Source: a virus
Length of the DNA stretch: 34,254 nucleotides
Strand: one strand, 5' to 3'
Virus record (IMG/VR): IMGVR_UViG_3300033149_006603
Location: 1-34,254 of that record
Below the pieces are notes generated by a model. That model had not been told where the DNA came from, searched no databases, and saw only the letters and a list, made by a program, of their open reading frames with translations. This document shows positions 576-27,781 of the stretch, piece after piece; the first letter of the stretch is position 1, and every line of letters begins with the position of its first letter. The translations under genes and the position numbers were made by a program.

Positions 576-803
576 ATGGACACTACCTTGAGATTAAGCA
601 TGGAAGGAAAGGTTTATCTAGAGGAGATAGATAAAAATGAAAATGTAGTTACCAGAGAAGAGCTGGACTCGGATACCGTTCTTCACTGTGTAAGACAAAT
701 GGTTGAAAAGAGCATCAATGAAATGCTCCCAAAGATTTCTGAGACAGAGGAGGCTCCCAAAGACTTAACCGAGGGCCTGGGCAAAGAAAAGAGATGGCGT
801 TAA
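576..803 (+). CDS. Hypothetical 75-aa acidic protein
   Basis: ATG start with AGGAG 8 bases upstream, behind its own promoter (513-541) and terminator (492-511). The protein is charged and soluble: a short beta-like N-terminus (TLRLSMEGKVYLEEID), a helical middle (HCVRQMVEKSINEML) and a disordered Glu/Lys-rich tail. No family recognised. It is the only plus-strand gene in the left part and its stop overlaps the end of the convergent gene 800-1072 by 4 bases. It could be an early regulator or small accessory protein, but there is no sequence evidence for a specific function. Confidence 0.7.
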   Translation: MDTTLRLSMEGKVYLEEIDKNENVVTREELDSDTVLHCVRQMVEKSINEMLPKISETEEAPKDLTEGLGKEKRWR

Positions 804-1072
804 TCTTTCTCTGTTCTTCTTAAAAAATCATTGAATAAGTAGCTTATTTCTTTTACGGCTTCTCTATCGAGCAATACTTCGTCCCAATGCCCCCATCGAT
901 CTCTTATCCCGAGTATATACTTGATTCCTTTCCAAAGCCGCCGGAAGAACCCGAATCTGGTTAATTGAATTTCCAGATATATTAGCGGAAAATCCTCTTC
1001 TTGTTCGTCAACGAAACGAATGGTATGGTCAGGCAATCTACACGCGCACTCTATCCAAAGCTTCTTTTCCAT
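800..1072 (-). CDS. Conserved-looking small phage protein (90 aa)
   Basis: Starts MEKKLWIECACRLPDHTIRF. The layout (Cys-containing N-terminal strand CAC, hydrophobic strand LIYLEIQL, basic helix FFRRLWKGIKYILG, then WDEVLLDREAVKEISYL) resembles a small uncharacterised protein that recurs in many phage genomes; this is recollection of a pattern, not a search. The ATG has only a weak GGGG-type ribosome site. It is the last gene of the minus-strand block and converges with the 75-aa gene. No enzymatic motif is visible; DNA- or protein-binding is possible. Confidence 0.65.
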   Translation of the reverse strand: MEKKLWIECACRLPDHTIRFVDEQEEDFPLIYLEIQLTRFGFFRRLWKGIKYILGIRDRWGHWDEVLLDREAVKEISYLFNDFLRRTEKD

Positions 1073-1134
1073 TTGCCCCAGAATCCTTTCTATTTAATTA
1101 AAATCGACTAACCCATCTCCTAGTACTCACTTGA

Positions 1135-1162
1135 CCTCAATTGTTGCTCAGAATTGATCCTC
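1135..1162. repeat. 28-bp dispersed repeat, copy A
   Basis: Matches 3722-3749 at 25 of 28 positions. Each copy holds an inverted pair (TCAATT...AATTGA here) around GTTGCTCAG, so it could fold as a hairpin. TAGAAT/ATTCTA-type inverted motifs follow both copies. Copy A lies in the 119-bp gap between genes 800-1072 and 1192-1434; copy B lies beyond the other end of the minus-strand gene block. Confidence 0.7.
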
Positions 1163-1191
1163 GTTAGAATTAGAGGCATTCTAGTGTCTGA

Positions 1192-1434
1192 CTAGAATAT
1201 GATTATTTGCTCACCTGCTTTTTGAACTACTATTTTATTGTAGCAATACTGAAGACAAGTTCTATGCAATTGATCCACGGGAACGGATTGTTTCCGAGGA
1301 TCGTACTCACATTTAAAGAGGCAAGACTGGTGCTCCATTATTTTGACTTCTTTGCCCAGCAAGAAAGCCCAATGGAGCCCCACTCCTGCGAGCACCAAGG
1401 AGAAAACGATCGCAAGAAAGGAAACGAACCTCAA
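1192..1434 (-). CDS. Membrane-anchored twin CX3C mini-protein (80 aa)
   Basis: TTG start chosen because GGAG lies 8-9 bases upstream, inside the end of the preceding gene (stop at 1439-1441), which suggests translational coupling. Residues 1-27 form a hydrophobic anchor or signal (RFVSFLAIVFSLVLAGVGL). The rest carries exactly four cysteines in two CX3C pairs, C38/C42 and C60/C64, separated by 17 residues. This is the geometry of two disulfide-stapled antiparallel helices (as in CHCH and small-Tim proteins); the resemblance is in spacing only. The cysteines would sit outside the cytoplasm, where disulfides form. No phage family recognised. Confidence 0.7.
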   Translation of the reverse strand: MRFVSFLAIVFSLVLAGVGLHWAFLLGKEVKIMEHQSCLFKCEYDPRKQSVPVDQLHRTCLQYCYNKIVVQKAGEQIIIF

Positions 1435-1438
1435 TTAA

Positions 1439-2113
1439 TTACTCCAGAGCAGTGTCGATTTGGATTTTTATTTTAAAAGTCGGTATCTTTACATAATCCA
1501 CTAATCCCAACCTTTTCGCCTCCCTTGCCGTCATGTACCAGTCGCCATTACCGACTACATGTTTAAGTACATTTAAAAAGTAATTGGGTGGACGCTTAGC
1601 TTGTTTGGCCATTATCCGAAAAAGAAGAGTATTGAGCCTGTCGACTTCTTTCGCGGTAGCCTGAATCTCGTGGTTTTTCCCCACGAGCATAGCGGCTACT
1701 TCGTGAATCATGATCGTTGAATTAGGCGCTGCATATCTGTATCCGGGTGTTCCACTCGCAAGGAAAACGGCTCCAGCGGACATGGCCTTTCCAATCGCAA
1801 TTGTCGCCACGGGGACCCTAGAGGCCTGAACTATATCCACCATCTCCAATAGAGCATAGACAGATCCTCCATAACTACTGACAACAACAGGAATAACCGA
1901 TTGCCCAGTCCTTTGTGCCATTTTCATTTCTTCGGCAAATTTAGTGGCAGATTCTTGAGAAAAGTCTCGAACATGAATGATCACTAAACTGGGATCTTTT
2001 TGAGGACTAAAGAGGGTTTTTTCGATTGTCGCAGCCATCGGGCTACTTGATTCTACCTGAACTGGCAGAACAGCCAAACTGACTCCCAGGACTAATGCAG
2101 ATAAAAAATTCAC
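1439..2113 (-). CDS. ClpP-like serine protease with N-terminal signal sequence
   Basis: A 224-aa ClpP/crotonase-fold protease (family S14). The oxyanion strand SSYGGSV is at 79-85 (ClpP: NSPGGSV), the nucleophile Ser112 in GKAMSAGA, the general base His137 in STIMIHEVA, and a candidate acid Asp191 in GDWYMTAREAKRLGLVDYV, which matches the ClpP C-terminal signature. Residues 1-24 (MNFLSALVLGVSLAVLPVQVESSS) look like a secretion signal or membrane anchor, unusual for ClpP. GTG start with AGGAG 6 bases upstream. It lies between two other membrane-targeted genes, suggesting action at or beyond the inner membrane. Phage ClpP-like proteins are usually prohead proteases, but this one is far from the head genes and on the other strand. 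Confidence 0.85.
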   Translation of the reverse strand: MNFLSALVLGVSLAVLPVQVESSSPMAATIEKTLFSPQKDPSLVIIHVRDFSQESATKFAEEMKMAQRTGQSVIPVVVSSYGGSVYALLEMVDIVQASRVPVATIAIGKAMSAGAVFLASGTPGYRYAAPNSTIMIHEVAAMLVGKNHEIQATAKEVDRLNTLLFRIMAKQAKRPPNYFLNVLKHVVGNGDWYMTAREAKRLGLVDYVKIPTFKIKIQIDTALE

Positions 2114-2128
2114 CTTTTTCTCCTTTCG

Positions 2129-2440
2129 TTATTTTATTTCCTTAGCGTCACAATGACCCGTTAAAACATGACGTTCTCCTGTCCTGGCATCTGTAAAAAT
2201 CCAGGCACGAGACTGAGGGCAATAGATATCTTCCGGACTACCCCGAACGATGCCGTAAAAAAGAATCCTTTCTCCTGAATAGCATTTAAGTCTGATAGTC
2301 CGGTCCCTTACCGCTCCCCTTGCTTCTGTGTAATTAGTAACCTGCAGGTAAGTCATGTATCCCATTCCGGCCAAAAGGCTCAAAATAGTCAAACAAACAA
2401 ATGCGGTATCGAAAATCTTTTTCCATTTCTCCTTGTTCAT
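2129..2440 (-). CDS. Single-pass membrane protein with Cys-containing outer domain (103 aa)
   Basis: Start taken as the ATG at 2440 (MNKEKWKKIFDTAF), whose A is shared with the TGA of the upstream gene, with GAGGAG just upstream. The longer in-frame ORF would overlap that gene by about 90 bases. A basic N-terminus is followed by a hydrophobic helix at about 12-34 and a small soluble domain with C53, C74 and C97 and a beta-like pattern (TIRLKCYSGERILFYGIV, RAWIFTDARTGERHVLTG). Type II topology places the domain outside. No family recognised. It is in operon with the secreted ClpP-like gene 15 bases downstream. Confidence 0.75.
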   Translation of the reverse strand: MNKEKWKKIFDTAFVCLTILSLLAGMGYMTYLQVTNYTEARGAVRDRTIRLKCYSGERILFYGIVRGSPEDIYCPQSRAWIFTDARTGERHVLTGHCDAKEIK

Positions 2441-2748
2441 CAGCTCAACTCCTCTCCATGCACTCGATTCTCCAAGGCCCTTTTCGGAGAAACTTTGGGT
2501 AAATTTTTGACCAATTCTCGCTGATTCCATTCGCAGTCAGGAACGGGACATGTTTCCATGTATTCGATTTCTTTAGTCCGCCCGCAATTCGGACAAATAA
2601 AAATGGTCCGATAAATTCGATGATCATGCCAGTGAAATTCGGGAACATCACTTTTCCCATTTCTCCGTCGATAAAACGTAGTGGCCATAGACTCGCTTTT
2701 GTCCATTCCCACACATTCCATCTCTTCTTGACACTTACTGCATTTCAC
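2440..2748 (-). CDS. Zinc-ribbon protein (102 aa)
   Basis: GTG start at 2748, inside the last codons of the upstream gene (14-base overlap), which suggests translational coupling. Paired CxxC knuckles at C3/C6 and C52/C55 would build a zinc ribbon, with further Cys at C67 and C72 and a His-rich segment (FHWHDHR, 39-44). Small ribbons like this occur in phage transcription modulators and adaptors, but no specific function is indicated. The ribosome site is weak. The stop overlaps the ATG of the next gene by one base. Confidence 0.7.
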   Translation of the reverse strand: MKCSKCQEEMECVGMDKSESMATTFYRRRNGKSDVPEFHWHDHRIYRTIFICPNCGRTKEIEYMETCPVPDCEWNQRELVKNLPKVSPKRALENRVHGEELS

Positions 2749-3559
2749 TGAGTTCTTTTTCCTTATAGGCCCTTACCCATTCACTAATTTCATTCGCAAC
2801 TTTTTCTGGAGACAAAATTTCTTCGATTGGAGTTCCTTTCAGCAAAGGAGCCGATGTGTAATTAACCGCGTACCATTTTCCCCCTTCGGATTTAATAAAA
2901 TCAACTGCCCCGAGAGGATAATGAGATTCAAATAAACTCGAGAACTCAAATGGCCAATATATATAATCATTTTCAACTCTTATCTCTCGAGAACAATTAA
3001 GGCAATTTACTGATTCTCTCCCTTTCAAAGACAAAGTGGCGCCACAGAGAGGACAAGAATAAGTACCGTTTTTTACAAAGTAGAAAAGCGCCTTGTCTCT
3101 TCTGACCGGAAGTTCTTCGGTACCCGAAACTAAAACATTTCCTTCATGAGATTCCCACTCGTGATCAGAAGAATATTTAAGCCAAAAATACATTGATCCA
3201 ATTCGGATAAATCGAGTGCTTTCTGTTTTTTCTGTGGGAATAAATAAATAAGCCCATTGATCAGGATAATCTTCAAAAGCTTGCATGATGTCCATTTTGA
3301 TTTTTATTCGATTGGGAAAACAGACGACAACGAAAATATTTTCTGCGTTAAAAACATACTTCTTGGGCATTCTGTCCAGAAGCTCTCTCACACTCCCAAA
3401 AGGAGGCACGGTCAAACCGTCTTCATCTCGAAGACTTTTCAGCTGCTCTGTTCTTCTAACTTGTGAATCTTGTTTTCTAATTAATACATCTGTTCCTGTT
3501 TTAAAATATTCGTCATAGTAATCTTCGAAATTGGTAACTAATCTAACTCCGGTTTCCAT
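2735..3559 (-). CDS. Zinc-ribbon protein with ATP-grasp-like C-terminal segment (274 aa)
   Basis: ATG at 3559 with AGGAG 6 bases upstream and a strong promoter at 3586-3615; first gene of the minus-strand operon. A CxxC...CxxC ribbon (C169, C172, C186, C189) sits in the middle. Residues 217-243 (GAVDFIKSEGGKWYAVNYTS then APLLKGT) resemble the last strands of ATP-grasp enzymes, where the consensus is GVDF...GK.Y.lEVNTAPGL.GT. The usual metal-binding Glu of EVN is not present here (AVN), and I do not see a clear N-terminal nucleotide-binding half. It may be a degenerate or inactive ATP-grasp relative; the assignment is tentative. Confidence 0.6.
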   Translation of the reverse strand: METGVRLVTNFEDYYDEYFKTGTDVLIRKQDSQVRRTEQLKSLRDEDGLTVPPFGSVRELLDRMPKKYVFNAENIFVVVCFPNRIKIKMDIMQAFEDYPDQWAYLFIPTEKTESTRFIRIGSMYFWLKYSSDHEWESHEGNVLVSGTEELPVRRDKALFYFVKNGTYSCPLCGATLSLKGRESVNCLNCSREIRVENDYIYWPFEFSSLFESHYPLGAVDFIKSEGGKWYAVNYTSAPLLKGTPIEEILSPEKVANEISEWVRAYKEKELSEMQ

Positions 3560-3585
3560 TCGGACTCCTACGATTGTTTAAATCG

Positions 3586-3615
3586 ATTCTAACAGAAAGC
3601 GAGGGGAAAAGTCAA
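3586..3615 (-). promoter_or_regulatory. Sigma70-type promoter for the minus-strand operon
   Basis: On the minus strand: TTGACT (3615-3610), an 18-bp spacer and TAGAAT (3591-3586), close to consensus. It lies about 27 bases upstream of the ATG at 3559 and would drive the genes down to 800. Confidence 0.8.
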
Positions 3616-3721
3616 CGAAAAAGTTTTTGCCGAAAGACCAAAAGAGAAAAAAGGTAAATCTTCACGAGAATGGCGCGTAAGAAACGTTTGACCTCGAACT
3701 ATACCTAAGCCATAGCCCCGG

Positions 3722-3749
3722 CCTCGATTGTTTCTCAGAATTGATTCTC
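3722..3749. repeat. 28-bp dispersed repeat, copy B
   Basis: 25 of 28 positions match copy A (1135-1162). A further partial echo, TTGACCTCGA, is at 3689-3698, matching TTGACCTCAA that leads into copy A. It is followed by CTAGGCCTATTCTAGG-like inverted motifs. Confidence 0.7.
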
Positions 3750-3822
3750 AGTCGTTCTAGGCCTATTCTAGGTTTATACTCTAGCCCCCTTTTTAGGCAT
3801 CTAGGACTTCTCTTGCTTAATC

Positions 3823-4190
3823 CTCAGTTTTAATTACTCAGTTTTAAATATAATCAGTTTAATTAACTATTACCCTCAGTTTTAAATACAGATCTTAACT
3901 TCAATATATAATATATATATTAACATCAGGTCTATATTAACTTCAACTTATGTTAACTTCAGATCAGTTTTATCTTCAGAGATCAAGATCAGTTAATATT
4001 AACTTCAATATTAACTTAATACTGATATTAACCTCGAAACAGATATTAACCTCGAAACAGATTATACAGATCCATAAATATTAAATTATTTCAATAGCAT
4101 TGAAACAGAAGTTAATAGTTAATACTGAAGTTAATATTTAATACTGATATGAAACTCTTAAAACTCATGGTAATTAACTTCAGAAGTTAA
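3823..4190. repeat. AT-rich repeat array: candidate origin iterons or operator array
   Basis: TTAACTTC occurs at 3895, 3937, 3953, 3999 and 4174; its complement GAAGTTAA occurs at 4108, 4127 and 4183; near-copies are TTAACATC (3920), TTAACTTA (4011) and TTAACCTC (4028, 4046). That is about twelve sites in 300 bp on both strands. A second word, CTCAGTTTTAA, occurs at 3823, 3837 and 3875, with a variant at 4223. There is no gene between 3560 and 4310. The array lies between two outward promoters (3586-3615 minus, 4256-4284 plus). Dense short repeats in AT-rich DNA are typical of replication origins (iterons) or of a multi-site repressor region. Confidence 0.75.
4024..4059. repeat. 18-bp perfect tandem repeat (two units)
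   Basis: GATATTAACCTCGAAACA occurs twice in tandem with no mismatch (4024-4041, 4042-4059). Each unit contains a TTAACCTC variant of the array word, so it is part of the larger repeat region. Confidence 0.85.
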
Positions 4191-4234
4191 TATATTACTA
4201 TCAGATAGTAATTCTGTTTAAACTCAGTTTAAAC
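4173..4234. promoter_or_regulatory. Palindrome cluster upstream of the late promoter
   Basis: Consecutive perfect inverted repeats: ATTAACTT-CAG-AAGTTAAT (4173-4191), TTACTATC-A-GATAGTAA (4195-4211), and two GTTTAAAC palindromes (4216-4223 and 4227-4234) whose centres are 11 bp apart, about one helical turn. The last ends 21 bp before the -35 hexamer at 4256. This is operator-like; the binding protein is unknown. Confidence 0.6.
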
Positions 4235-4255
4235 CGAGGGGAAATAAAGCTTCCG

Positions 4256-4284
4256 TTGAAAAAGGAATTGTGGTAAAATATTAT
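4256..4284 (+). promoter_or_regulatory. Sigma70-type promoter for the morphogenesis operon
   Basis: TTGAAA (4256-4261), a 17-bp spacer and TATTAT (4279-4284). The transcript would start near 4291, with the AGGAGGAG ribosome site and the ATG at 4311 following at once. It drives the genes from 4311 rightwards. Confidence 0.8.
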
Positions 4285-4310
4285 AGATAAGGCAGGAGGA
4301 GCGAGTCCTA

Positions 4311-5177
4311 ATGAGCGACGACGAAAAGAAATTATCTCTGGAAGAAATAAAGGCTCGGAGAAAGAGAAGTCAGAAGAATAAATCGATGGCACTGGCTAGA
4401 AAATTTGAAGGGGAATTACGAATTTCCGAAGAAGACGATGGAGATAAAAATCTCTTTACGAGAGAACAACTTATTGAAGCTTTGGTATATGACCCGGAAA
4501 ACATATCTGATACAAAAACGTATACAGAAGAAGAGCTTGAATATGTAAAAAAGAGCATGAAAAAATTGCTCCTTGGATCGGGCTCCTCGATAATCATGAA
4601 GTGCCCCGGAAAAGAAGAGTGTCCTTACGGGGAAGAATGTCCTTTTGCGCGGATTGGGAAGGAACCGATGGGGAAATCTTGTCTTCTGGAAACTATGTAT
4701 TTTAACGAGCTTTTGATTCAAACGGTGAATTCTTTTGACGTAGATGCGACAAATGTGGCAGAGATGGCATTTTGTAATGAATTGGTTGAGTCGAAAATAC
4801 TTCAGATGAGGGCAAATAGGGCACTGGGAAAACCAGAGAATGTTGACCTTGTCGTGATGCAGGAAAGCTTTAGTAAAAGTGGAGATTTAATACAGAATCC
4901 AGTAGTTTCTCCTCATTTGGACGCTCGGGATAAAATTGTAAGAAGAATAGAGAGAATAATTAAGCTTATGGTTGGCGATAGGCAGGAAAAATACAAGCGG
5001 GCGGCTGCGTTGAAAAAGCGCGATGAAACAGATGAGTCGACAGATCAGGCGAAAAAAGCCCGGATGATCATGGAAGCTAAGATGAAAAAAGAGGTTAAAG
5101 AGCTGGAATCTGCGGAAGAAGAGGAAGAAGTATTAACCCCTGATGATATTCTAAGTCAAGTTGAGGATCCAGAATAG
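4311..5177 (+). CDS. Cys-cluster protein, candidate terminase small subunit
   Basis: 288 aa, ATG with AGGAGGAG about 10 bases upstream, first gene after the promoter. The N-terminal third is highly charged. A cluster C98-x5-C104-x5-C110-x13-C124 (KCPGKEECPYGEECPF) probably binds metal. A helical region follows (AEMAFCNELVESKILQMRANRAL), then NPVVSPHLDARDKIVRRIERIIKLM, which recalls the C-terminal part of P27-type small terminases (NP...A...i.r...lmG...R). The C-terminus is charged coiled coil ending in an acidic tail. Position upstream of the large terminase, though separated from it by four genes, supports a DNA-packaging role, but this is inference. Confidence 0.5.
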   Translation: MSDDEKKLSLEEIKARRKRSQKNKSMALARKFEGELRISEEDDGDKNLFTREQLIEALVYDPENISDTKTYTEEELEYVKKSMKKLLLGSGSSIIMKCPGKEECPYGEECPFARIGKEPMGKSCLLETMYFNELLIQTVNSFDVDATNVAEMAFCNELVESKILQMRANRALGKPENVDLVVMQESFSKSGDLIQNPVVSPHLDARDKIVRRIERIIKLMVGDRQEKYKRAAALKKRDETDESTDQAKKARMIMEAKMKKEVKELESAEEEEEVLTPDDILSQVEDPE

Positions 5178-8100
5178 TTGTTCTCGTTTCTACCTAAGAA
5201 TACATTATTTTTCGACATAGAAACCGGGGGCATAGAATCAAAAGAATCTTCTGTATTTTCCCTTACCTACGGACAACGGGGAAGAAGATTAAGAACCAGC
5301 TATGCCTCTCCCGCCAAAGGTTCATTTGTTTCCAGGTGGGCCGAAGATATAGTTTTATCGAAAATCCAAGGAAAAAAGACAGTTAGCGAGCAGAGGCTCC
5401 TAGAAGCCTTTCTTAAAAAACTAGAAAAGAGAAGGGCAGGATCTACTTTAGCTGGTTGGAATATAGGCTATAAAGCTATTCCTCAGGCGAGTTGGATTGC
5501 TGGATTTGATATTCCTTTTCTTGTAAGTCGGGCCGGAAAATATGGATTACAAGGAAGATATCAACAGGCCTTTGGCCGCTTAACTACGAGAGATATAGGG
5601 CAGGAATTTCTGGCGAGTACAGCTTCAAGAATTTACGGTTTTGCCAAGAATTTACCTCAAGAGCGTTTATTTCAAATATTTGATCCTGATATTTATCGAC
5701 AACTAGAACCTTATGGAAGAGAGGCCTTCGCCTTACGTCAGAGAGGTTTGGGCGTACCTGAGATAGCCCGAAAATTACAGGGATATAGAGTCGCAGGGTG
5801 GAAACAGGATCTGGCCTACGAGTTGATGACTGGGAAGCCCCTAACTTCTGCTCATATGTCTGAGGCTGATGTTCAGGCTATGATAGAGATGTCTGGGAAA
5901 ACGTTGAATATTTCAGATGAACAGTTTGCCAGAAAGTGGCATTCGTTAGCGCTGAAAGGTAGGCTAGTAAGCTCGGCTAAGGCTCAAGTGAGAAGAGGGA
6001 AAGAGATAGGCTGGGAGGCGCTAGAAGCCAGGGCAACGAGATACGGACTAGATTGGAGTTCCATTAGGAGCACAATAGAGTCTGAGAGAAAATATTTTTC
6101 TGGATCTGGTCGCATTTGGGAGCGAGAAGTAGCGGAAGAAGCAGTTGTTAGGGCTAGATCAATTTTTGCTGGACGAAAGGGATTGCTTATTGGGGGAGCG
6201 GTTGCGGCAGGAGCAGCTCTTTTGTATGCCGTTAAGCCCCTTAGATGGCTGAATGACAGGGATGAGCAGCTAGAGGCCGTTAAAAGAGGTGAGTTAGCCG
6301 AGGTTAAAATTTATGGGGCAGATGATGCCTACAATGAAATAAAAGGTATGCCTGAGCAGGGAATAGGTCCTGTTTTAAGGCATGCCATGACTCCATTTGG
6401 GTCTGGATATCAAGGAGAAAGAGAAAAAGACGCTTTCGATTATTCTTCTTCGATTATCCCAGGTCTTTTTTCAGCAGGTGTCGGAGGATTTCTAGCTTTT
6501 GGACGTCGCGAGGGAACTTGGCTGAATGTGCCTGTTGATCCGGCAGAATATGCAGAATCTTTTACAAAATTCAAATATCGTCCCGGCGACATCATTGTTT
6601 CTCGTAATGTTCTTTACGACGCCCCCTTCCATGTGGCAATCGTGGGTCCCGATAAAAGCGTATACCAAGCGTGGCCCGGGGCGGGGGGAAAAGCCGTTGT
6701 ACAGCGAGAAAGTATAAGCTCTTATGTTAGGGGTCAGATAAAAATACATGCTGCCGAAAAAATGGAGTACCCTCTTTTCGGTGTAGTGCGCCCCTCCGCT
6801 TTATCAGAAAGCAAACGTCTAGAAGTGGCCAGAAATGCAGCCGGGATATATGGCGACTTTATTTGGGGAACAATTAGGCCAAGATATGGGCTGCTTGCGA
6901 ACCAGGGTGTAAATGAGTTTAACTGTTTAAGCTATGTATCGGAAGCTTATAGTAGAGCTGGGGCGGAGTTCTTCAAGCCAGAGGTCAAGAGGGCTTTTCC
7001 GTGGAATGTTAGCGAAAAAGGCTGGGAATGGATGTTGAAAAGTCCGAGAAAAATCGGAGAGAAGCGTCTTCTTCCCAAATATGCGGCAGGGCTTGGACTC
7101 GTTAGTGCGGGGATTGGGGCAGCAACTGGCGACCCGCTTTTGGCTGGTTATGGCGTTGGAATGGTTGGGCTTTCGCTTGGGAGCAGGGCATTTTTAGAGA
7201 GTTCCCTTGCCAAGCGTCTTGGCTTGGTAGGTTTGGTTTTACCCGGTAAAACCAGAGCGCTCTTTATGAAGTCTCTCGCGTTTGCCGGTTATACAGCCAT
7301 GGCGCTTCCTGCCGTTTTAAGAGGGGCAAGCGACTTAAGCGATTTTGATGCATCAAGCTTGTTGAATGTGGCGGCAGCGGGCAGTAGTTTATATTTCGGG
7401 AAAACCGTATACGATACGATATTTAAGAATGTTCCCAAGTATGATCCTAAATCCAAGCGTTTGCTAATTCTCGCGGATGTGGCGGCTGGCGGAGCAATGG
7501 GACATACAATGCCAGCGGAGGCTATTAGAGATTGGGTTCAGAAACATGGCTGGGACGCTGATGTTGTTGGTGGTTTTGAGAACTTAAGTGGTCTAAAACA
7601 TTCTGGTGTTGGATACCGTGCGTTCGTAGATGCCGGATATAATACTCAATGGATATCTGGGCTTCCGGGTGTAGCGGTACAGTGGGACGTGCAGGGGAAA
7701 AATCTTTCTAGTCAGGCGAAATTCAGGTCTATTTTAACTAAGAATTTTGGTCTTAGTTCTGAGGGTATGGCTTTTGTCGTGCCTTCTGTAGAGCAGGCGG
7801 CAGATTATGCTTCGGTAACTGGTCAGAAGAACTTTTATTCATTCAATACCCTGGTTATCAAGCCGAAAACTTTTGAGAAAATACAGGCTATAAAAAGAAC
7901 GTTGGCAGCTGGACAGCTAAAGCTTCCCGGAATTTCGTCTGGAGAGAGGTTTGTAACTATTTCGGGCGGCGGGAAAGGCTTCGGGGTAGCTGAAGCCGCT
8001 AGGGTTTTGCAAGAAAGCGGATGGCTAAAAGAAACCAATAGAAAGGCTGTTATTTTTGCCGCCAATTTGAATACGCAAAGACCTAAGGCCTATAGAAGTC

Positions 8101-10181
8101 TAATGGAATTGGTGGAGAAGGATCCTTCGAGATTTATTGTTCACGATTTTGCTCCCGGAGGGGCTGGTAGAAGACTTACGGAGTATATGGCGGCAGCTGA
8201 TATAAATTTATTGGCCGGAGGAGCTTCCACTACGGTAGAAGCAACAGTCGCTGAGAAGCCGTTTCTTGCCTTTCGTGGAGCTGGAGTTCCAAAGTGGGAG
8301 CATTTTATCGGAAATCCAGAGTATGCCAGAGAGAAATGGGGGGCGTCGGTAAGGCTATATGAATTGCCTGGATTAGGAGAAGAAGCTGCCGAGAAGGTAA
8401 CTGAGCTAAGAGGGGCTTTGACTTTTCTCGAAAAACAGGGGGCGGTCAAGAGTGCAGTTCCTCGTATGTCAGAGTTTGACGCAGGTAAGAGAATAATAGA
8501 CATAATCGAAGAGGCGGAGAAAGCGGGGCAACTAAGGCCAGCGAAATTTAGGCCTACTCTCCAGGGGATGGTTTATCCTCTTTGGAAAAATCCTGGGGTG
8601 CGGCGAGCTGGATTGGCGACTCTCGGTATTTTTGCATTATTGGGGGTAAGTGGTCTGATTTCGGATGACGAAGAGGAAGTTTCCGATAGATTGGCAAAGG
8701 GGAACTATCAGGACCATAATACGATTCCTGGAATGCCGGAGGAGGGTATGAACGCCCAAATGCGGCATGAAATGACAGAGTTTGGTAGCGGCTGGCTAGG
8801 GAAGTTATTTAGGAGATTTGGCCGTAAAGCGTTGCCGGAAGCAGCAAGTACGGGTTGGCGATTATCTGCTCAACAAATGCGAGAAATGTCTGCCGTAGAA
8901 TTTAAAAGATTTGTATCTTCTCGTGCTAAATCCTCAAAATCATTACAAATTATAGGAGCGATGTCGAAGGAGAGTGGCGGTAATTGGGCGTTAAACGCTC
9001 GTCAACTTCAATCCCTTTCTACGGAAGAATTGATAAGAGAGATTAAGTCTCAAGGTGGCGAAGCAATAGGATTGCTTAAAGGAGCTTTTAAAGAAGCGGG
9101 GACGCAGGTTGGAAGAATTAGGGCAAATAAGGCTCTGAACCCGATTGAAGGATTAGGGTGCAGCGGGAAGGGTATTTTTACCGACTTCGGCTCTCCTTGG
9201 AAAGGCCCAGTTGTTTCAGGTCCTTTGGCGAAAAAGGTAGCCCTAAATGATCCGAGGATGTTCAATACTGTAGAGGGCTTGGTGCATGGGGGAATGAATG
9301 AGCGGAAGCGTCATGAAATGACTCCGTTTGGGGGGCCGTTTAATTGGGCTAAGGGATTGTTCAGGAAGACTTTTCCCGGTCAGAAGAATGCCTCTAAGAT
9401 ATTAAGCGAGATGAGCAAGAAAGAGAGTGTCATTGTTTTTCCAGAGAGATTAATGGGATATTTACCGAAAGAAATGAGGAAGGAGTATTCTGGGTTAGTC
9501 GGGGGATATCTTCCTTTGGCAGGAACACAGGCCACTAGGGCTAGGGGGGAAATGGCTTTCGAGGACATATTTAAGGTATTGAGGGCTCAGACTAGAGGGG
9601 ATGAAGCTGGACGAGAGCTGGCGAAGGAGTTTTATTCAGAAGCTGCTAAAAAAACAGGGCCTGGAGGGGGGATTCTTGTTTCCGAAAGAGGGTTTAAGAG
9701 AATGGCTCGTAAGGCGGGTGGAACGGATGTTATTTCAGAAACGATAGCTCACGAAAGAACTCATATGGGGTTAAGGGTTAAGGGGCTCCTAGAAGACGTA
9801 GAGGAAATATTTGATATGGCAGGGGCTTCTGGTGGGTACAAGAAATGGTTGAATAAGTATAAAAAACATGCCTATTATTCAAAAGAGCCAGGTCGGTTGG
9901 CGGAGGAATATGTAGCGCATGCGGCGGGAGCGGCTAAGAGGGGGATGACTAAGGCTGAAAAAGAAATGTATGCTCCTGCGATTGCTTATCTTAAAGGTAC
10001 TCCAGAGTTATCAGAATTTGCCGGATTGCAATTCCATAATAGAATGGGAGACATGACTAGGGCAGCTCAGCAGCAAGCGGTCTTAAATGCTAAGAACGGC
10101 GCCAAGAATCACATAAAACATACGAGCTCTTTAACAAATGCTGAAAGAGGATATAATAATGCCGGAAGGATTTGGGAGTAG
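5178..10181 (+). CDS. Giant polyvalent protein: DEDDh exonuclease, permuted papain-like peptidase, MurG-like glycosyltransferase, gluzincin-like metallopeptidase
   Basis: 1667 aa, TTG start directly after the upstream TAG, with GAGG inside the previous gene. Residues 1-260: DnaQ/RNase T-like DEDDh fold with D13 and E15 (FFDIETGG), D111 (GFDIPFL), H226 and D231 (SAHMSEADV). About 460-600: circularly permuted NlpC/P60 or C92-type peptidase, with PGDIIVSR and H485 (HVAIVG) before C583 (NCLSYVSEAY). About 758-1075: GT28/MurG-like, with GGAMGHTMPA at 771-780, ISGGGKGFG and the NLLAGGASTTVEA donor-site signature. About 1500-1600: HERTH (1525-1529) with possible third ligand E1576 or E1577 in AEEYVAH. 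Hydrophobic helices lie near 336-352, 633-665 and 1144-1160. Four FGS-type repeats occur at about 389-412, 1184-1207, 1322-1342 and 1365-1388. This resembles polyvalent proteins delivered with phage DNA; virion packaging is inference. Confidence 0.85.
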   Translation: MFSFLPKNTLFFDIETGGIESKESSVFSLTYGQRGRRLRTSYASPAKGSFVSRWAEDIVLSKIQGKKTVSEQRLLEAFLKKLEKRRAGSTLAGWNIGYKAIPQASWIAGFDIPFLVSRAGKYGLQGRYQQAFGRLTTRDIGQEFLASTASRIYGFAKNLPQERLFQIFDPDIYRQLEPYGREAFALRQRGLGVPEIARKLQGYRVAGWKQDLAYELMTGKPLTSAHMSEADVQAMIEMSGKTLNISDEQFARKWHSLALKGRLVSSAKAQVRRGKEIGWEALEARATRYGLDWSSIRSTIESERKYFSGSGRIWEREVAEEAVVRARSIFAGRKGLLIGGAVAAGAALLYAVKPLRWLNDRDEQLEAVKRGELAEVKIYGADDAYNEIKGMPEQGIGPVLRHAMTPFGSGYQGEREKDAFDYSSSIIPGLFSAGVGGFLAFGRREGTWLNVPVDPAEYAESFTKFKYRPGDIIVSRNVLYDAPFHVAIVGPDKSVYQAWPGAGGKAVVQRESISSYVRGQIKIHAAEKMEYPLFGVVRPSALSESKRLEVARNAAGIYGDFIWGTIRPRYGLLANQGVNEFNCLSYVSEAYSRAGAEFFKPEVKRAFPWNVSEKGWEWMLKSPRKIGEKRLLPKYAAGLGLVSAGIGAATGDPLLAGYGVGMVGLSLGSRAFLESSLAKRLGLVGLVLPGKTRALFMKSLAFAGYTAMALPAVLRGASDLSDFDASSLLNVAAAGSSLYFGKTVYDTIFKNVPKYDPKSKRLLILADVAAGGAMGHTMPAEAIRDWVQKHGWDADVVGGFENLSGLKHSGVGYRAFVDAGYNTQWISGLPGVAVQWDVQGKNLSSQAKFRSILTKNFGLSSEGMAFVVPSVEQAADYASVTGQKNFYSFNTLVIKPKTFEKIQAIKRTLAAGQLKLPGISSGERFVTISGGGKGFGVAEAARVLQESGWLKETNRKAVIFAANLNTQRPKAYRSLMELVEKDPSRFIVHDFAPGGAGRRLTEYMAAADINLLAGGASTTVEATVAEKPFLAFRGAGVPKWEHFIGNPEYAREKWGASVRLYELPGLGEEAAEKVTELRGALTFLEKQGAVKSAVPRMSEFDAGKRIIDIIEEAEKAGQLRPAKFRPTLQGMVYPLWKNPGVRRAGLATLGIFALLGVSGLISDDEEEVSDRLAKGNYQDHNTIPGMPEEGMNAQMRHEMTEFGSGWLGKLFRRFGRKALPEAASTGWRLSAQQMREMSAVEFKRFVSSRAKSSKSLQIIGAMSKESGGNWALNARQLQSLSTEELIREIKSQGGEAIGLLKGAFKEAGTQVGRIRANKALNPIEGLGCSGKGIFTDFGSPWKGPVVSGPLAKKVALNDPRMFNTVEGLVHGGMNERKRHEMTPFGGPFNWAKGLFRKTFPGQKNASKILSEMSKKESVIVFPERLMGYLPKEMRKEYSGLVGGYLPLAGTQATRARGEMAFEDIFKVLRAQTRGDEAGRELAKEFYSEAAKKTGPGGGILVSERGFKRMARKAGGTDVISETIAHERTHMGLRVKGLLEDVEEIFDMAGASGGYKKWLNKYKKHAYYSKEPGRLAEEYVAHAAGAAKRGMTKAEKEMYAPAIAYLKGTPELSEFAGLQFHNRMGDMTRAAQQQAVLNAKNGAKNHIKHTSSLTNAERGYNNAGRIWE

Positions 10182-12115: not shown

Positions 12116-15100
12116 ATGATTAATCTCAAAAAGTGTTCTTCTACGTGCTTGGAATGTATTAAGCAATATAAAGAAAAGCATAAAGTAGATTTTAAAGAAA
12201 GCAATGAGCGACCTCATTTTGCGATTGACTGCGGTGGTATCCCCAAAGAGTACCTAACGGAAGAAGAGGCGGCGGGATTTTCGGATCTAGAATACAGAGA
12301 AGTTCTTTCGTACTTAGATCCTGTTACTTGGGCCGCAGAAAATTTAGATTGGCATTGTTTAGATCCTGATGGGGAGATTTGGAAAAGAAAGAATCCCCAG
12401 GAGTATTTGAATTGGCGGAAGAAAAATCCTGGAGTAGATATTCTGGGTCACTCTCGATATCATCGACCATATCAGGCTCTGATATTGCGTTGTCGGGCCA
12501 GGCATAAGGTGATGCGCGTCGGACGTCAGGCCGGAAAATCTGAAGCCATTGTGGTCGCAATGCTTTATCATATGTTCGTAAAGCCTGGTGTTCCGGAAAA
12601 TGAGGGATTTATTATTGTTCTTGTTACTCCTTATCAGACTCAGATTGAGCTCATTTTTAAGAGAATAACCGAGTTGCTTCAGTCTAGTGTTAAGCTTCAG
12701 AATTCTATTCATAGAAGCGTGAAAGCTCCTCAGTATCAGTTGGAGCTGCACAATAATAGTCGTATTGCTGGATTTACTGCAGGTTCGAAGTCTAGTGGCG
12801 GAGCGACAAGCGTTCGTGGGCAGCACGCAAATATGCTTTGTTTAGATGAAGGATCTCTTGTCAATACGGGTGAATTTTCATTAAAGCCGATAGAAAAGCT
12901 TACCCTACAGGACACTGTTTTGGGAGCGGATTTCGATAGAATAGAAGTCGGGGAAATAATTGCAAATTTCAAGAGAGAGGCTGAGGTCATTAGGATATCT
13001 ACTCCGTTGACGACTCTTCGATGCACTCCGGACCATCCTATTTTTAACGGGAGAGAAGATGTTCCTGCCGAAAGAGCTCGGGAGGCTATTGTAGATCTTT
13101 CTTATCGGAATTTGTCCTTTAAGCAAGAGGCCATTATTGCTCGATTGGCAGGCTATAATTTTGGGGACGGGTGGATAACTGAAAATCTCAAAGAAGCTGG
13201 TTTTTCTGGAGACGAGAAGGATTTGCAGCAAATACTCCAGGACATTGTCGTATTAGGTGGGGAGCCGAGTGTAGGAAAGAATCGGTTTTCTATTAACAAG
13301 GAGCTTGGCATCGAGGGGATGGTGGCACAAATCGGCAGTAGATATGCGGTTAGATTGCTTAAGGATATATGCCCTAGGGGGAGAAAGGTGCATCAACAGC
13401 TTGCCGTGCCTTTGTCTGTCATGAATGGTTCGGCTATCGCGAAGAAGAATTTTCTTTCTGGATTATATAGCGCAGGAGGAACGGAATTGCGATACAAAAA
13501 GAACGGCACTACTCCTTGTGCGTTAGAGATAAGGATGAATTCTTCTAAAAAAGAGTTTATCGAAAAATGGATTTTCCAAATTGTAAAATTGCTAGAAAGT
13601 GTGGGCGTTAGAGTTTCAAAAGTTAAGATAAAGAAGGAAAAGGGGACGATCAATAAGGCCCAGGAGGATAGGTGGGTTGGTTTGATCAGGATGGCTAATT
13701 CAAGAAAGAATTTACTTCGTTTTATAGATGCTGTTGGAGCTTGTTATTCGATGGCCAAACAGCGAGCTTTTAACGCACACAGGCTTTACTGTTGGTACGA
13801 TTCTGTATACAAAGAGAGGGTATGGAAGAAAAACCGCAGGATTAGGGCTCTTGGATACTTGAAGAATAAGGAAACATCTTCTGCCTTGGGTATTCCACTT
13901 AGTACTGTGAAATTTCATAAAAAAAAATATCACCCGTTATTTTCAGAAAATAAGTTGGACGTCTCGGGTCTTATAGACAAGTTGTCGATAATTTCAGATG
14001 GATATGTTTTGCTTCCTATTTTGGATAAGCATCTGAAACGGAGAACTCTATCTACTGTTTACAATTTAACGTCTACGGCCTTTCATAGGTATTTTGGAAA
14101 CGGAATGTTAACTCACAACTGTTTGGATGAGGCTGACTATCTAAATTCCGATGACATGGACGCTGTTATGTCAGTTGTTACGAATTATCCCGAGGCGCTT
14201 GTTTGGATGTCTTCTACGCCTAGCGGAAAAAGAGATAAGTTTTTTAGTGTATGTCATGATATGGGCTGGAAAGAGTTCCATTTCCCTTCTTACGCAAATC
14301 CTTTGTGGAATGAGCGAATAGAGGCAAATTTTAGAAGCATTTTGACCAAGATTGCTTGGGAACACGAGATAGAGGCGAATTTTTCAGAACAAGAGCTTGG
14401 TGTTTTTCAGAATGCATATGTTGACGCGGCTAAGGATGTTCATGAGTATGAAGCGATGGTCCCCCAAAGGGGTTGGGCGTATATGATGGGGGTTGATTGG
14501 AATGATCCTGCTAATGGGACTACTATTTCAGTTGTAGGGTTTAATCCAGCGAATAACAACTATTATAAAGTGGCCAGAGAAATAGTTCAAAAAGCGGGAT
14601 GGACTCAGTTGGCGGCTTGTCAAAAAATAGCAGAATTGAATAGGCTTTGGCGGCCCGATAGGATTTACATAGATAAGGGGCATGGTTCAACTCAAGGAGA
14701 GATTTTGCGCAAATGGGGGTTTGAAGCTCTTACTGATCCGAGTCGCGGGAGGGGGCATCCGGATACAAAATTAAAAGATCTGGTTGTTTATGATTTTGGC
14801 TCTAATGTTGAGGTAAGAGATCCTTGGACTCAAAAAAAAGAAAAGAAGTATGCCAAGGCCTTCTTGGTCGAGAATGCAGTAAGATTTTTCGAAAGTCAGA
14901 TAATTCACTATCCCGCCTCCGACAAGGATTTTGCCAAACAGCTTAATGGCTATATTATCAAAAGGATAGGTGAGTCTGGTAAGCCGACTTACGAGGCAGG
15001 GCCTGCTGGAGATCATATGCTTGACGCATTCATGCTGGCCTTGGTTGCCTTTGCTCTGGAAACCTCTTCTTTGGGAAAGCCTAAATTTGATATGTCTATT

Positions 15101-15415
15101 TCTTTTGCGCCGCCGCTTAATTCTTTTCCAGAAGAGGGCGAGGGGAAGATTAAGGAGCTTGCCGAGGGGGTATACCATAAAGAAGGCCCCAAAGAGAAAC
15201 GAACAACTAGACCGTCGATGAAGCGTACGGGCTTTTTGGATGAAACTCCTGCCCTAATTACCAGAGGAAATGCACCCGCAGCCCACACGACCCTAGAGGC
15301 CAGAAAAAACACCATTTTTTGGGGAGAGGGAAAAAATCATTTGTCAAAAGATTCTGAAAATGGTATTATACGTAGAGGTTTAAGAACTAGACGTCCTCGG
15401 AGGAAAAATATCTGA
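12116..15415 (+). CDS. Terminase large subunit precursor with intein
   Basis: 1099-aa precursor; about 672 aa after removal of the intein (residues 242-668). ATPase half: Walker A GRQAGKS at 136-142, and Walker B LCLDEAD, which is only complete after splicing joins L241 to C669. Nuclease half: GVDWNDPANGT, RIYIDKGHG and GDHMLDAFMLAL, the acidic residues of an RNase H-fold terminase nuclease. Extra features: an N-terminal Cys cluster (C7, C11, C14, with C39) and a basic C-terminal tail of about 70 residues after the nuclease. The ATG has only a weak purine-rich site. The protein translocates DNA into the prohead and cuts it. The next gene starts in its stop codon. Confidence 0.95.
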   Translation: MINLKKCSSTCLECIKQYKEKHKVDFKESNERPHFAIDCGGIPKEYLTEEEAAGFSDLEYREVLSYLDPVTWAAENLDWHCLDPDGEIWKRKNPQEYLNWRKKNPGVDILGHSRYHRPYQALILRCRARHKVMRVGRQAGKSEAIVVAMLYHMFVKPGVPENEGFIIVLVTPYQTQIELIFKRITELLQSSVKLQNSIHRSVKAPQYQLELHNNSRIAGFTAGSKSSGGATSVRGQHANMLCLDEGSLVNTGEFSLKPIEKLTLQDTVLGADFDRIEVGEIIANFKREAEVIRISTPLTTLRCTPDHPIFNGREDVPAERAREAIVDLSYRNLSFKQEAIIARLAGYNFGDGWITENLKEAGFSGDEKDLQQILQDIVVLGGEPSVGKNRFSINKELGIEGMVAQIGSRYAVRLLKDICPRGRKVHQQLAVPLSVMNGSAIAKKNFLSGLYSAGGTELRYKKNGTTPCALEIRMNSSKKEFIEKWIFQIVKLLESVGVRVSKVKIKKEKGTINKAQEDRWVGLIRMANSRKNLLRFIDAVGACYSMAKQRAFNAHRLYCWYDSVYKERVWKKNRRIRALGYLKNKETSSALGIPLSTVKFHKKKYHPLFSENKLDVSGLIDKLSIISDGYVLLPILDKHLKRRTLSTVYNLTSTAFHRYFGNGMLTHNCLDEADYLNSDDMDAVMSVVTNYPEALVWMSSTPSGKRDKFFSVCHDMGWKEFHFPSYANPLWNERIEANFRSILTKIAWEHEIEANFSEQELGVFQNAYVDAAKDVHEYEAMVPQRGWAYMMGVDWNDPANGTTISVVGFNPANNNYYKVAREIVQKAGWTQLAACQKIAELNRLWRPDRIYIDKGHGSTQGEILRKWGFEALTDPSRGRGHPDTKLKDLVVYDFGSNVEVRDPWTQKKEKKYAKAFLVENAVRFFESQIIHYPASDKDFAKQLNGYIIKRIGESGKPTYEAGPAGDHMLDAFMLALVAFALETSSLGKPKFDMSISFAPPLNSFPEEGEGKIKELAEGVYHKEGPKEKRTTRPSMKRTGFLDETPALITRGNAPAAHTTLEARKNTIFWGEGKNHLSKDSENGIIRRGLRTRRPRRKNI
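12839..14119 (+). other. Intein with degenerate LAGLIDADG homing endonuclease
   Basis: 427-aa in-frame insertion. It begins with Cys1 (CLDEGSLVNTG, residue 242), carries the block-B signature T304-P-D-H307, and ends with the block-G motif GMLTHN (N668) followed by Cys+1 (C669). The endonuclease core has LAGYNFGDG (344-352, catalytic-position D351) and a second motif LSGLYSAGG (447-455), where the catalytic acid is replaced by Gly454. A helix-turn-helix-like stretch (TSSALGIPLSTVKFHKKKYH) precedes the C-terminal splicing block. Splicing residues look intact, so protein splicing is expected; homing activity is doubtful. Confidence 0.93.
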
Positions 15416-15843
15416 TGGCTTTGAATGTTTATGAAGATACGACTTCAGATCCTTATAGTACTAGTGGTTTATTTACCTTGCCTTTAATTTTGGGGTTTGA
15501 TGGTCGAACGGGTGGAGTTGTTCAGAAAAAGCTTTATCTAAGAAATGATAATGTTTTGTATAAATATGAGGATATAACTATAGAAGCAGAACAGGTCGGC
15601 GGGGACTTAGATTATATAGGTGGAACGGAGGGTTTTTATTTTAAGATGCGAGCAGGAGATGCTCGGCCCACGGCTGCTGAATGGGACACTATTAGTGGGG
15701 GGACTTCCATTTCTATGAGCGACATAATTGACGCCTCTACTTATCTTCCTTTTTGGGTGTATGTGGAGGTTCCTGGTCATTTAGCTGTCATGCATATCAA
15801 GGATGTCCGTTTTAAAATTAGTGCGACAGAATCTCTTTCTTAA
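15415..15843 (+). CDS. Hypothetical structural protein (142 aa)
   Basis: ATG inside the terminase stop codon (TGATG), with GGAGG 10 bases upstream. The protein is beta-rich and acidic (VVQKKLYLRNDNVLYKYEDI, GGTEGFYFKMRAGDARPTAAEWDTI, YLPFWVYVEVPGHLAVMHIKD) and reads like a small phage beta-sandwich (head completion, adaptor or fibre component). I do not recognise a family. Its last codons (LS, stop) are supplied by the repeat module that begins at 15834, so the C-terminus may have been altered by module insertion. Confidence 0.75.
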   Translation: MALNVYEDTTSDPYSTSGLFTLPLILGFDGRTGGVVQKKLYLRNDNVLYKYEDITIEAEQVGGDLDYIGGTEGFYFKMRAGDARPTAAEWDTISGGTSISMSDIIDASTYLPFWVYVEVPGHLAVMHIKDVRFKISATESLS

Positions 15844-15930
15844 GTAAAGTTCCAAAGGAACGGATTTGTTTTTTGAATTAAAAAAAGCTTGCCCTCTGAG
15901 AGCCGTTCATGCTAGGATATAGTTAATGAA
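15834..15930 (+). repeat. Promoter module, copy 1
   Basis: The first 58 bp (from TCTTTCTTAAG through AAAGCTTG) are identical to copies at 18635 and 27624; the remaining part is diverged but alignable up to the ATG. Contents: LS and stop codons of the upstream gene, hairpin GTTCC-AAA-GGAAC (15849-15861), a T6 run 7 nt later, A/T tracts like an UP element, then the promoter 15889-15918. Beyond the ATG this copy is unrelated to the other two. Confidence 0.9.
15889..15918 (+). promoter_or_regulatory. Extended -10 promoter in module copy 1 (leaderless)
   Basis: TTGCCC (15889-15894), an 18-bp spacer ending in TGC, and TAGGAT (15913-15918). The expected start point (about 15925) abuts the ATG at 15926, so the 42-aa ORF there would be read from a leaderless mRNA. 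Confidence 0.65.
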
Positions 15931-16054
15931 TATTTCTAAACGCGGTGGTCAAACGGTAGCAGACAGAGATGCTGCCGTGCGGTGTATTGGTGACCCGCTT
16001 AATCAGAGGACCGAGAAGGCGGTTCAGCTGGAATCGTCGGGCGGTGCCCGATGA
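15926..16054 (+). CDS. Small leaderless ORF coupled to the 853-aa gene (42 aa)
   Basis: Reads MNISKRGGQTVADRDAAVRC...SSGGAR. There is no Shine-Dalgarno; the ATG falls at the predicted transcription start of the module promoter. Its TGA overlaps the ATG of the next gene (ATGA), which itself lacks a strong ribosome site, so this ORF may serve mainly to bring ribosomes to the 853-aa gene. It is hydrophilic with no recognised family, and may be a leader peptide rather than a functional protein. Confidence 0.5.
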   Translation: MNISKRGGQTVADRDAAVRCIGDPLNQRTEKAVQLESSGGAR

Positions 16055-18620: not shown

Positions 18621-18644
18621 ATGGCTGATAAGAGTCTTTCTTAA
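18621..18644 (+). pseudogene. Seven-codon stub of an interrupted gene (MADKSLS)
   Basis: GGAGG (18604-18608) precedes ATG GCT GAT AAG AGT; the promoter module then supplies CTT TCT TAA. The site looks like the original ribosome site and first codons of the gene that followed the 853-aa ORF, possibly the portal gene, cut off by insertion of the module and tnpB. Spacing from GGAGG to ATG is 12 bases, somewhat long, so this is suggestive only. Confidence 0.4.
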
Positions 18645-18750
18645 GTAAAGTTCCAAAGGAACGGATTTGTTTTTTGAATTAAAAAAAGCTTGTTTTCCGA
18701 GAGTCGTTTGTGCTAGGATATAACTAATGAAAGCCAATAGAGCTTACAAA
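18635..18750 (+). repeat. Promoter module, copy 2, including tnpB start
   Basis: All 116 bp are identical to copy 3 (27624-27739). It runs from TCTTTCTTAAG, through the hairpin, A/T tracts and promoter, to ATGAAAGCCAATAGAGCTT plus ACAAA, which encodes MKANRAYK, a typical N-terminus of IS200/IS605-family TnpB (OrfB). Confidence 0.92.
18690..18719 (+). promoter_or_regulatory. Extended -10 promoter in module copy 2 (leaderless)
   Basis: TTGTTT (18690-18695), an 18-bp spacer ending TGC, and TAGGAT (18714-18719). The ATG of the tnpB remnant is at 18727, 8 nt after the -10, implying a leaderless transcript. It could also supply the downstream portal operon. Confidence 0.65.
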
Positions 18751-19652
18751 ATCCTTGTCGACTAAATCGATGGGCCAGTTAGCACACCAGGCCCAGTATA
18801 GAGCTAGAGCAATTATCTCAGCTCAAAAAGCTTCTGCTCGAGCAACAGGAAACAAGGTTAACGTCCCTGTGGTTGAGCGAATAGGATGTCCAGCCATACT
18901 GAAGGCCAATAAAGAAGCTGCGTTTGACTACTGGCTTTCGGTTCAAAATCAATTCGGAGGAAAGCGAATTAAATTACCTTGCCGTTCACATCGAAAGCTC
19001 AATAAAGCGCTTCGAGATGGCTGGACACTTAAATCAAATGCTGAGTTTATTCTAGATAACAAGAATAGACCGGTTGCTCGTGTTTACGTAGAAAAAGAAG
19101 TCCAAAAGGCTACTCCTAAATCAGAATCACTAGGCTGCGACGTTAATTACAAAAATTCAGTAGTTCGCAGCGATGCTTGCATTGGATTCAATGCCTCGAA
19201 GTTAATCAAGAAAGCTAGAGGCAAACGGTCCCAGCGTCAACGACAAGGTTTGAGAAGTAAATCAGTGAAGACTAATTTAAAACAGCGACTAGATATTGAA
19301 GCTAAGTTAGCAATTGGACGTTCCAAGCGCACTAAGCGGAATCTAGTCGTTGAAAACCCGAAGGTTCTGAGCTCCCTGGGTAGGGGTAAACTACAAGGTT
19401 GGGCTCAGTCCTACTTCGCCAATAGGTGTCAGGTACTAGCTCAGGAGGAGGAAGTGTTCATCTGGAGTATTAATCCAGCCTACACTTCTCAGACTTGCGC
19501 CAAGTGTGGTCATCTAGACAAACGGAGTCGGCGAGGTTCTCGTTTCACTTGCACTGCGTGTGGACACGGCCGAGAACATTGCCGCGAAGGGTACGTCGAG
19601 TCTCACTAGCGTGCTGGCGAGACGATCAGGAGACGTTAGCCGTGGGAAATAA
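18727..19652 (+). pseudogene. tnpB: Decayed tnpB (IS200/IS605 OrfB-like RNA-guided nuclease)
   Basis: Starts MKANRAYK, then shifts frame and stops; roughly the first 60-100 residues of a normal TnpB are missing. The main ORF (18755-19609, TTG) keeps RuvC-I Asp (GCDV, D129), RuvC-II Glu (VVENPK, E200) and the zinc ribbon C248/C251 and C266/C269. After CGH the frame changes: the other frame reads AENIAAKGTSSL to a TAA at 19650, matching the usual C-terminal NAA.NI..RG signature, while the segment that would carry the RuvC-III Asp is absent. This points to a small deletion. TnpB is a guide-RNA-directed DNA nuclease of transposons; this copy should be inactive. No tnpA is present. Confidence 0.85.
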
Positions 19653-27009: not shown

Positions 27010-27633
27010 ATGGCTGAAGTTAAAATCGCTCTTAAGAATGAAAATGACATGCTGTTCATTCCTAGTGCGGGGATATACCTAAATTTTGAAGAGCCTGGAC
27101 CCATTATTGTTGACACAGACAAGCTATCCTTGCAAGACAGAAACACGCTAAGGATATCTCTTGTTGTGGGAAAAATTGTCGCCGACAAAGGGGAAGTTTT
27201 GTCTGAGGGACTTCAGTCTTTGCAGGCTTCTAGCGGGGGAATGGCGAACATTGCTAATCGAGTACTTTCCGCCCCTATTCACGAGAGAAAAGAAACCCCC
27301 CCGGGGGTCTTTAAAAACAGAGAGAGGGAGCGTCAACGAAAATTTGTTGCCCTTCTTAAAAAGAAGGTCTCAGATGTTAAAAAGTCTGTTGAGAAAGTGG
27401 AAGATTTTCGGGACATAAAGCTCTTACTTGAGCTAGAAAAACGAGGAAAGAAACGCAAAAGCATGGTGTCTTTTCTGGGCGAAAAGATCCGAGAACTTGA
27501 GAAGGATATTGCCAGGTCTATTGAACCTGTAGAGGGCCGCGAAATGCCTAAGGGATACGAGATTGGCACCAATTTTGATATTACAGAAGAGCCCGAAGAA
27601 GAAGAAGAGGTTACCATACATTTTCTTTCTTAA
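27010..27633 (+). CDS. Hypothetical head-associated protein (207 aa)
   Basis: Start taken as ATG 27010 (MAEVKIALKN) with GAGG 7 bases upstream, rather than the in-frame GTG at 26983, which abuts the terminator and lacks a ribosome site. N-terminal beta domain (MLFIPSAGIYLNFEEPGPII), then a basic helical region (NRERERQRKFVALLKKKVSD) and a second charged coiled coil (RKSMVSFLGEKIRELEKDI), with an acidic C-terminal tail. It is the first gene of the transcript started by the promoter at 26915. No family recognised; head-tail connector or head-vertex roles are possible from position. Its last codons (LS, stop) come from module copy 3. Confidence 0.7.
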   Translation: MAEVKIALKNENDMLFIPSAGIYLNFEEPGPIIVDTDKLSLQDRNTLRISLVVGKIVADKGEVLSEGLQSLQASSGGMANIANRVLSAPIHERKETPPGVFKNRERERQRKFVALLKKKVSDVKKSVEKVEDFRDIKLLLELEKRGKKRKSMVSFLGEKIRELEKDIARSIEPVEGREMPKGYEIGTNFDITEEPEEEEEVTIHFLS

Positions 27634-27739: not shown

Positions 27740-27781
27740 CGACATCTCGAATACGTAAATATATGGTACCTGACATTTTGA
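27716..27781 (+). pseudogene. tnpB N-terminal remnant (21 codons)
   Basis: Reads MKANRAYK and then RHLEYVNIWYLTF to a TGA. Only the first eight codons match the tnpB start of copy 2; the remainder is not TnpB-like. Interpreted as the scar of a second element or as duplication of the promoter end of the first. Confidence 0.6.

Follow-up and report, generated by a model that had tools for sequence, protein, structure and literature searches.

A dense repeat array at positions 3817 to 4244 fills much of the gap between two diverging gene blocks in the window, the whole 34,254-bp stretch of DNA that was analysed, and we consider the chances about even that it is an operator array for a candidate phage regulator, which would activate a weak late promoter and perhaps repress the leftward one. 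The window coincides with the complete linear IMG/VR record IMGVR_UViG_3300033149_006603, which derives from a relative of the 0305phi8-36-like jumbo phages and is probably a fragment of a larger genome. The gap, as set by the gene directions, measures 751 bp (3560–4310), with genes running leftward up to 3559 and the virion operon running rightward from 4311, as expected from the original prediction that transcription direction flips here. The region had also been described as free of genes; the ORF list (50 aa or longer) has none contained in full within 3560–4310, although a 63-aa minus-strand ORF (4201–4392) overlaps the right edge. The first gene of the leftward block (2735–3559, minus strand) encodes a 274-aa protein with CxxC pairs, part of which has a 33% match in Moorella phage MTATph1, located at 120169–120588 within a leftward arm that also holds ribonucleotide reductase. 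The rightward virion operon opens with a gene (4311–5177, plus strand) for a 288-aa protein with four conserved cysteines. A 50-nt element at 3722–3771 is repeated at 74% at 1135–1184, both copies being placed upstream of leftward genes or blocks; the core of this repeat had no match in the viral-contig scan. An Rfam search gave no match.

The array contains 24% G+C over 3821–4240 and is where the duplex of the record is least stable, the stability minimum falling within it at the 100-, 200- and 400-bp scales. Eight exact TTAACTTC sites were observed between 3895 and 4190, five on the plus strand (3895, 3937, 3953, 3999 and 4174) and three on the minus strand (4108–4115, 4127–4134 and 4183–4190). 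About twelve sites of this type had been claimed, and their density and their presence on both strands held, with the count revised to eight exact sites or 11 in the form TTAAC[ACT]TC. The corresponding means in 1,000 local dinucleotide shuffles were 0.08 and 0.16, the largest value was 2, and none was as high as the counts observed. The concentration of the motif was also evident across the record, where 8 of the 12 copies of TTAACTTC in 34,254 bp lie within 3895–4190 (5 plus and 3 minus). Three word families crowd 3817–4244, namely TTAACTTCA with its complement (8 copies, counted as TTAACTTC), CTCAGTTTTAA (3) and TTAATACTGA (3), with shuffle means of at most 0.08 for all three. The predicted three-copy repeat proved exact, CTCAGTTTTAA occurring on the plus strand at 3823, 3837 and 3875 (3823–3885), as did the predicted perfect 18-bp tandem pair of GATATTAACCTCGAAACA (4024–4041 and 4042–4059, plus strand), and an inverted repeat with 22-nt arms of 95% complementarity (3995–4016 and 4117–4138) extends over 3995–4138. 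Between 3586 and 4284, 250 pairs of 8-mers were counted versus 26 in shuffles, and among 96 overlapping 700-bp windows the repeat z reached about 28 in the two over the array and 2.5 in the next, making the array the sole repeat-dense stretch of the record. Site positions showed no general 10–11 bp (10.5-bp) periodicity, 48% of random placements being equal or better, and the motif search inside the array, which lacked a shuffled control, serves descriptive use only. In a collection scan, at least 120 stretches carried two TTAACTTCA words within 30 bases, and the bare word is undiagnostic because the seven densest of these clusters, inspected by eye, resembled protein-coding sequence or other tandem repeats. 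A literature search for TTAACTTC gave nothing related among the matches listed.

The several palindromes of the original prediction were confirmed in a sharper form that the first reading had missed, as three perfect 19-bp odd dyads in a row that make up the right end of the array: dyad 1, ATTAACTTCAGAAGTTAAT (4173–4191); dyad 2, ATTACTATCAGATAGTAAT (4194–4212); and dyad 3, GTTTAAACTCAGTTTAAAC (4216–4234). Their centres, at 4182, 4203 and 4225, are spaced by 21 and 22 bp, about two helical turns. More than one perfect dyad was found in 0 of 2,000 shuffles, and the three account for three of the seven perfect odd dyads of at least 15 bp in the record, simple runs left out; 17-bp dyads of the imperfect kind (6 of 8 or better) were not in excess, with 11 versus a shuffle mean of 6.0 and a largest value of 13. 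Dyad 1 differs from dyads 2 and 3 at 3 and 6 of the 9 arm positions, yet each dyad is perfectly mirrored, and each folds on either strand into an 8-bp stem with a 3-nt loop (z −4.8 and −6.0), the fold of the whole region having a z of about −5. Because the differences are mirrored, a structure-based element is conceivable, and the dyads might work by forming hairpins or cruciforms in the DNA, which could, for instance, be promoters for a polymerase that reads single strands or hairpins for recombination or replication. This is doubtful, since dimeric protein sites give palindromes too, template-switch repair, which can perfect quasi-palindromes, is an alternative source of perfect ones, and general protein scans of the record revealed no virion RNA polymerase. 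It is just as doubtful, in particular, that the hairpin or cruciform rather than the sequence was selected in the dyads, which would then form a supercoiling-extruded element, set amid half-sites, with single-stranded loops for a phage protein or polymerase to read. That the array arose by chance or through faulty assembly of an AT-rich gap is scarcely credible; it is known from a single record, and a collection scan found dyads 1 and 2 in no other, but the shuffle tests and the degenerate words interleaved on both strands, which differ from a collapsed tandem, argue against it.

Promoter-like sites were detected facing outward at minus 3615–3586 and plus 4256–4284, where outward promoters had been proposed, although a simple scan returned 2 such sites against a shuffle mean of 3.6. 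The leftward site (3586–3615, minus strand) reads TTGACT-18-TAGAAT with an extended −10 (TGTTAGAAT), and its class (TTG, 17–18 bp, TGnTAGRAT) recurs at 513, 15889, 18690, 26915 and 27679; the class search also gave 1001, 15341, minus 3946 and minus 22202, where the −10 is not TAGRAT. The rightward region (4256–4284, plus strand) can be read either as TTGAAA-17-TATTAT, with a fair −35, or as the extended −10 TGGTAAAAT (4271–4279) without a good −35, the hexamer then being TTCCGT. Start sites are predictions from sequence, and if the TGGTAAAAT alternative is right, the dyad centres would fall near −61, −83 and −104 relative to the predicted start, positions such as suit class I activators. Two words are shared by the flanks: GTTTAAATCGA (3576–3586, plus strand) lies at the predicted leftward start, the only other GTTTAAAYCGA of the record being at 4227, and CGAGGGGAAA (3600–3609, plus strand) lies in the leftward promoter spacer, with its only other copy at 4235. 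A word search of the record showed that both, the first in the form GTTTAAAYCGA, are contained in GTTTAAACCGAGGGGAAA (4227–4244, plus strand), and GTTTAAAYCGA and CGAGGGGAAA thus have exactly two copies each, one per promoter flanking the array. Comparison of the flanks by 11-mers with at most one mismatch gave 6 overlapping matches, which 0 of 150 shuffle pairs reached, and by 14-mers a single match, which 1 of 150 reached, both controls being post hoc, as the words were first found by looking.

As an operator, the array would be bound at its TTAACTTCA-type half-sites by a candidate phage-encoded DNA-binding protein, and most strongly at the three perfect dyads (4173–4234), from which the regulator would bring the host's RNA polymerase to the rightward promoter, which may pair an extended −10 with a poor −35. 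By way of the same words, found at the start and in the spacer of the leftward promoter, the regulator may silence that promoter as well, and the rightward virion operon would be late. The repeat excess confined to the gap, the dyad spacing, the recurring leftward promoter class, the promoter-shared words and the diverging gene arms of many relatives all support this reading. The original prediction had offered two alternatives, an origin of the iteron type and binding by a regulator of both arms, and the second appears better supported because helically spaced perfect dyads stand beside a predicted promoter that may have an extended −10 and a poor −35 and because two words are shared between promoters, whereas the origin passes weak tests only and its skew evidence fails. 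Against the operator stand the absence of the array from the relatives checked, which leaves it without conservation support, its length of about 420 bp, greater than the job needs, and the lack of general phasing, of an imperfect-dyad excess and of promoter counts above shuffles. HTH_3 was absent from the record and from 8 relatives, and a Pfam scan of 21 record proteins detected no DNA-binding regulator.

Among known systems, lambda OL/OR carry dyads of 17–19 bp next to divergent promoters, three per operator and spaced by about two turns of the helix, and the array is like them in dyad size, spacing and divergent promoters, but differs by its added 420-bp half-site field and by the differing sequences of its three dyads. 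In logic, the proposed operator seems most like the p4 region of phi29. PMC3100819 describes a late promoter, A3, that has a poor −35 and requires p4, and p4 binding to imperfect inverted repeats between early and late promoters. The A2c/A2b/A3 region (p4, p6) is alike in its inverted-repeat sites between promoters, in its use of one region for both and perhaps in the poor −35 of its late promoter, and unlike in its four p4 sites, its shorter span and its consensus CTTTTT-15-AAAATG, with no p4 relative known for the present record. Here too, inverted-repeat sites lie between two promoters, one for each gene block, which were assigned by sequence only. Little is known of virion-gene timing in this jumbo-phage group, and the gap, short and clearly bounded, offers a DNA target for isolating the candidate regulator or probing an origin in a reporter.

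In lambda-type and plasmid iteron origins, repeated sites are placed beside DNA that melts readily, and an origin of this kind, at which an initiator would bind the repeats and dyads and melt the AT-rich array, is a rather unlikely interpretation. It is favoured by repeats that are dense on both strands, by their position adjoining easily melted AT-rich DNA with the lowest duplex stability in the record, by the dyad spacing of about 21 bp, as in lambda O iterons, and by a cumulative GC skew minimum near 3500–4000. A skew inflection had been suggested as a check and is present near the array, but it tracks gene strand: skew is +0.25 in 576–803, the sole plus-strand gene left of the array, and negative in the minus-strand neighbours. 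Because skew follows gene strand, the turn is no origin evidence and was rejected as such, and there was no strand-independent composition switch. Unlike iteron origins, the array sits in a promoter gap, scans of the proteins of this fragment, 21 of them against Pfam, revealed no initiator or replication gene, and no comparable array was seen in the relatives examined; a literature search on the origin gave no match. Partition sites are typically dense repeats beside a promoter, an arrangement also found here, but it is very improbable that the array is the centromere by which a plasmid-like phage is partitioned, no partition gene (NTPase or adaptor) being present among the 21 scanned proteins of the fragment.

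The 4311–5177 protein is a possible candidate for the small terminase. A packaging (pac/cos) or terminal-repeat boundary recognised by it would fit the place of the array, immediately upstream of a conserved gene that is followed by the virion genes and TerL, and the numbering of two named relatives, which begins at the arm boundary. The fold search returned 0 matches at E ≤ 0.001, and small terminases of HK97 and SPP1-like phage appeared among its weak matches at ranks 27 and 32 (E 1.2 and 1.5). Such a boundary is quite unlikely, as there is no significant fold match, the structure prediction (pLDDT 69, pTM 0.47) is too weak to name the protein, no relative was found among solved structures, and relatives with the same gene are without such an array.

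In the phage collection, the capsid, TerL and 4311–5177 proteins matched 0305phi8-36-like jumbo phages only, TerL also weakly matching Nostoc phage N1. The phages matched were Acinetobacter phage ME3, whose own annotation names 0305phi8-36 as homologous, Moorella phage MTATph1 and Bacillus phage KLEB27-3, with capsid identities of 32–36%; according to PMC2147016, the promoter classes of 0305phi8-36 were inferred from sequence. IMG/VR contained 19 loci with a relative of the 4311–5177 protein (31–38% identity) and 8 loci with a capsid relative, which in one case is identical and lies on a contig of 11.7 kb ending short of the gap, and scans with 2735–3559, 5178–10178 and the TerL C-terminus revealed no nearer relative spanning the gap. 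Ribosome-binding-like and sigma-70-like signals suggest a bacterial host. A 10-kb contig binned as a Thermoplasmata archaeon MAG (L173) gave a single weak match to the 4311–5177 protein (28%) and may be a mis-binned phage.

Many relatives likewise have diverging gene arms. ME3, MTATph1 and KLEB27-3 share homologous capsid, TerL and 4311–5177 proteins, and their arms diverge near the virion operon, but their arm boundaries, like those of the metagenomic relatives examined, are without the array. No comparable repeats were observed in five gaps (L006, L008, L010, L021 and L024), and repeat density over 37 relative locus pieces revealed no comparable array among those inspected, the milder-excess pieces L032, L162, L169, L172 and L019 being left out of the inspection. 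The pieces of raised density (L020, L022, L161, L011, L014, L017 and L170) displayed, by eye, other low-complexity, GC-rich or coding-like repeats, the exceptions being a 42-bp element present three times in L017 and an exact pair of 42 bp in L010. Alignment in 24 records produced short matches only (best E 0.048), and motif finding across the gaps of the relatives failed to settle on any usable motif. CC(C/T)GGGG, or CCGGGG then T, C or G, was present in 11 of the 13 relatives' gaps examined, which were drawn from the 19 loci, several of the remaining loci being near-duplicates. In the window, CCCCGGGGT lies at 240 (240–248), upstream of gene 576–803, under a slightly stricter pattern, chosen after reading the sequences, that also matches 8592 and 27300. 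Because this type of element occurs in the relatives' gaps and at 240 here, the usual arm boundary of the family seems to correspond to 142–575, and the leftward cassette (800–3559) together with the array looks like a lineage-specific addition. CC(C/T)GGGG is followed in some relatives by TCTTGCATGAAAAGG-like sequence, and a AATAATTC-like element seems, by eye, to be shared, with 2–3 copies in L010 and L017.

Other features were also observed in the record. A 130-nt repeat occupies three intergenic places (15834–15963, 18635–18764 and 27624–27753; 73–95% identical), with a hairpin GTTCCAAAGGAAC, later a T/A run, and then a promoter-like TTGnnn-18-TGCTAGGAT, and looks like a terminator–promoter module between virion genes. 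A TnpB-like ORF without the N-terminal part (18755–19609) adjoins a copy of this repeat and overlaps the portal ORF. TerL (12116–15415) carries an intein-like insert at about residues 250–670, according to NCBIfam and PHROG matches, and the 1,667-aa protein of 5178–10181, which had no Pfam or PHROG match, contains repeated GMPEEGMNAQMRHEMTEFGSG-type motifs discernible by eye.
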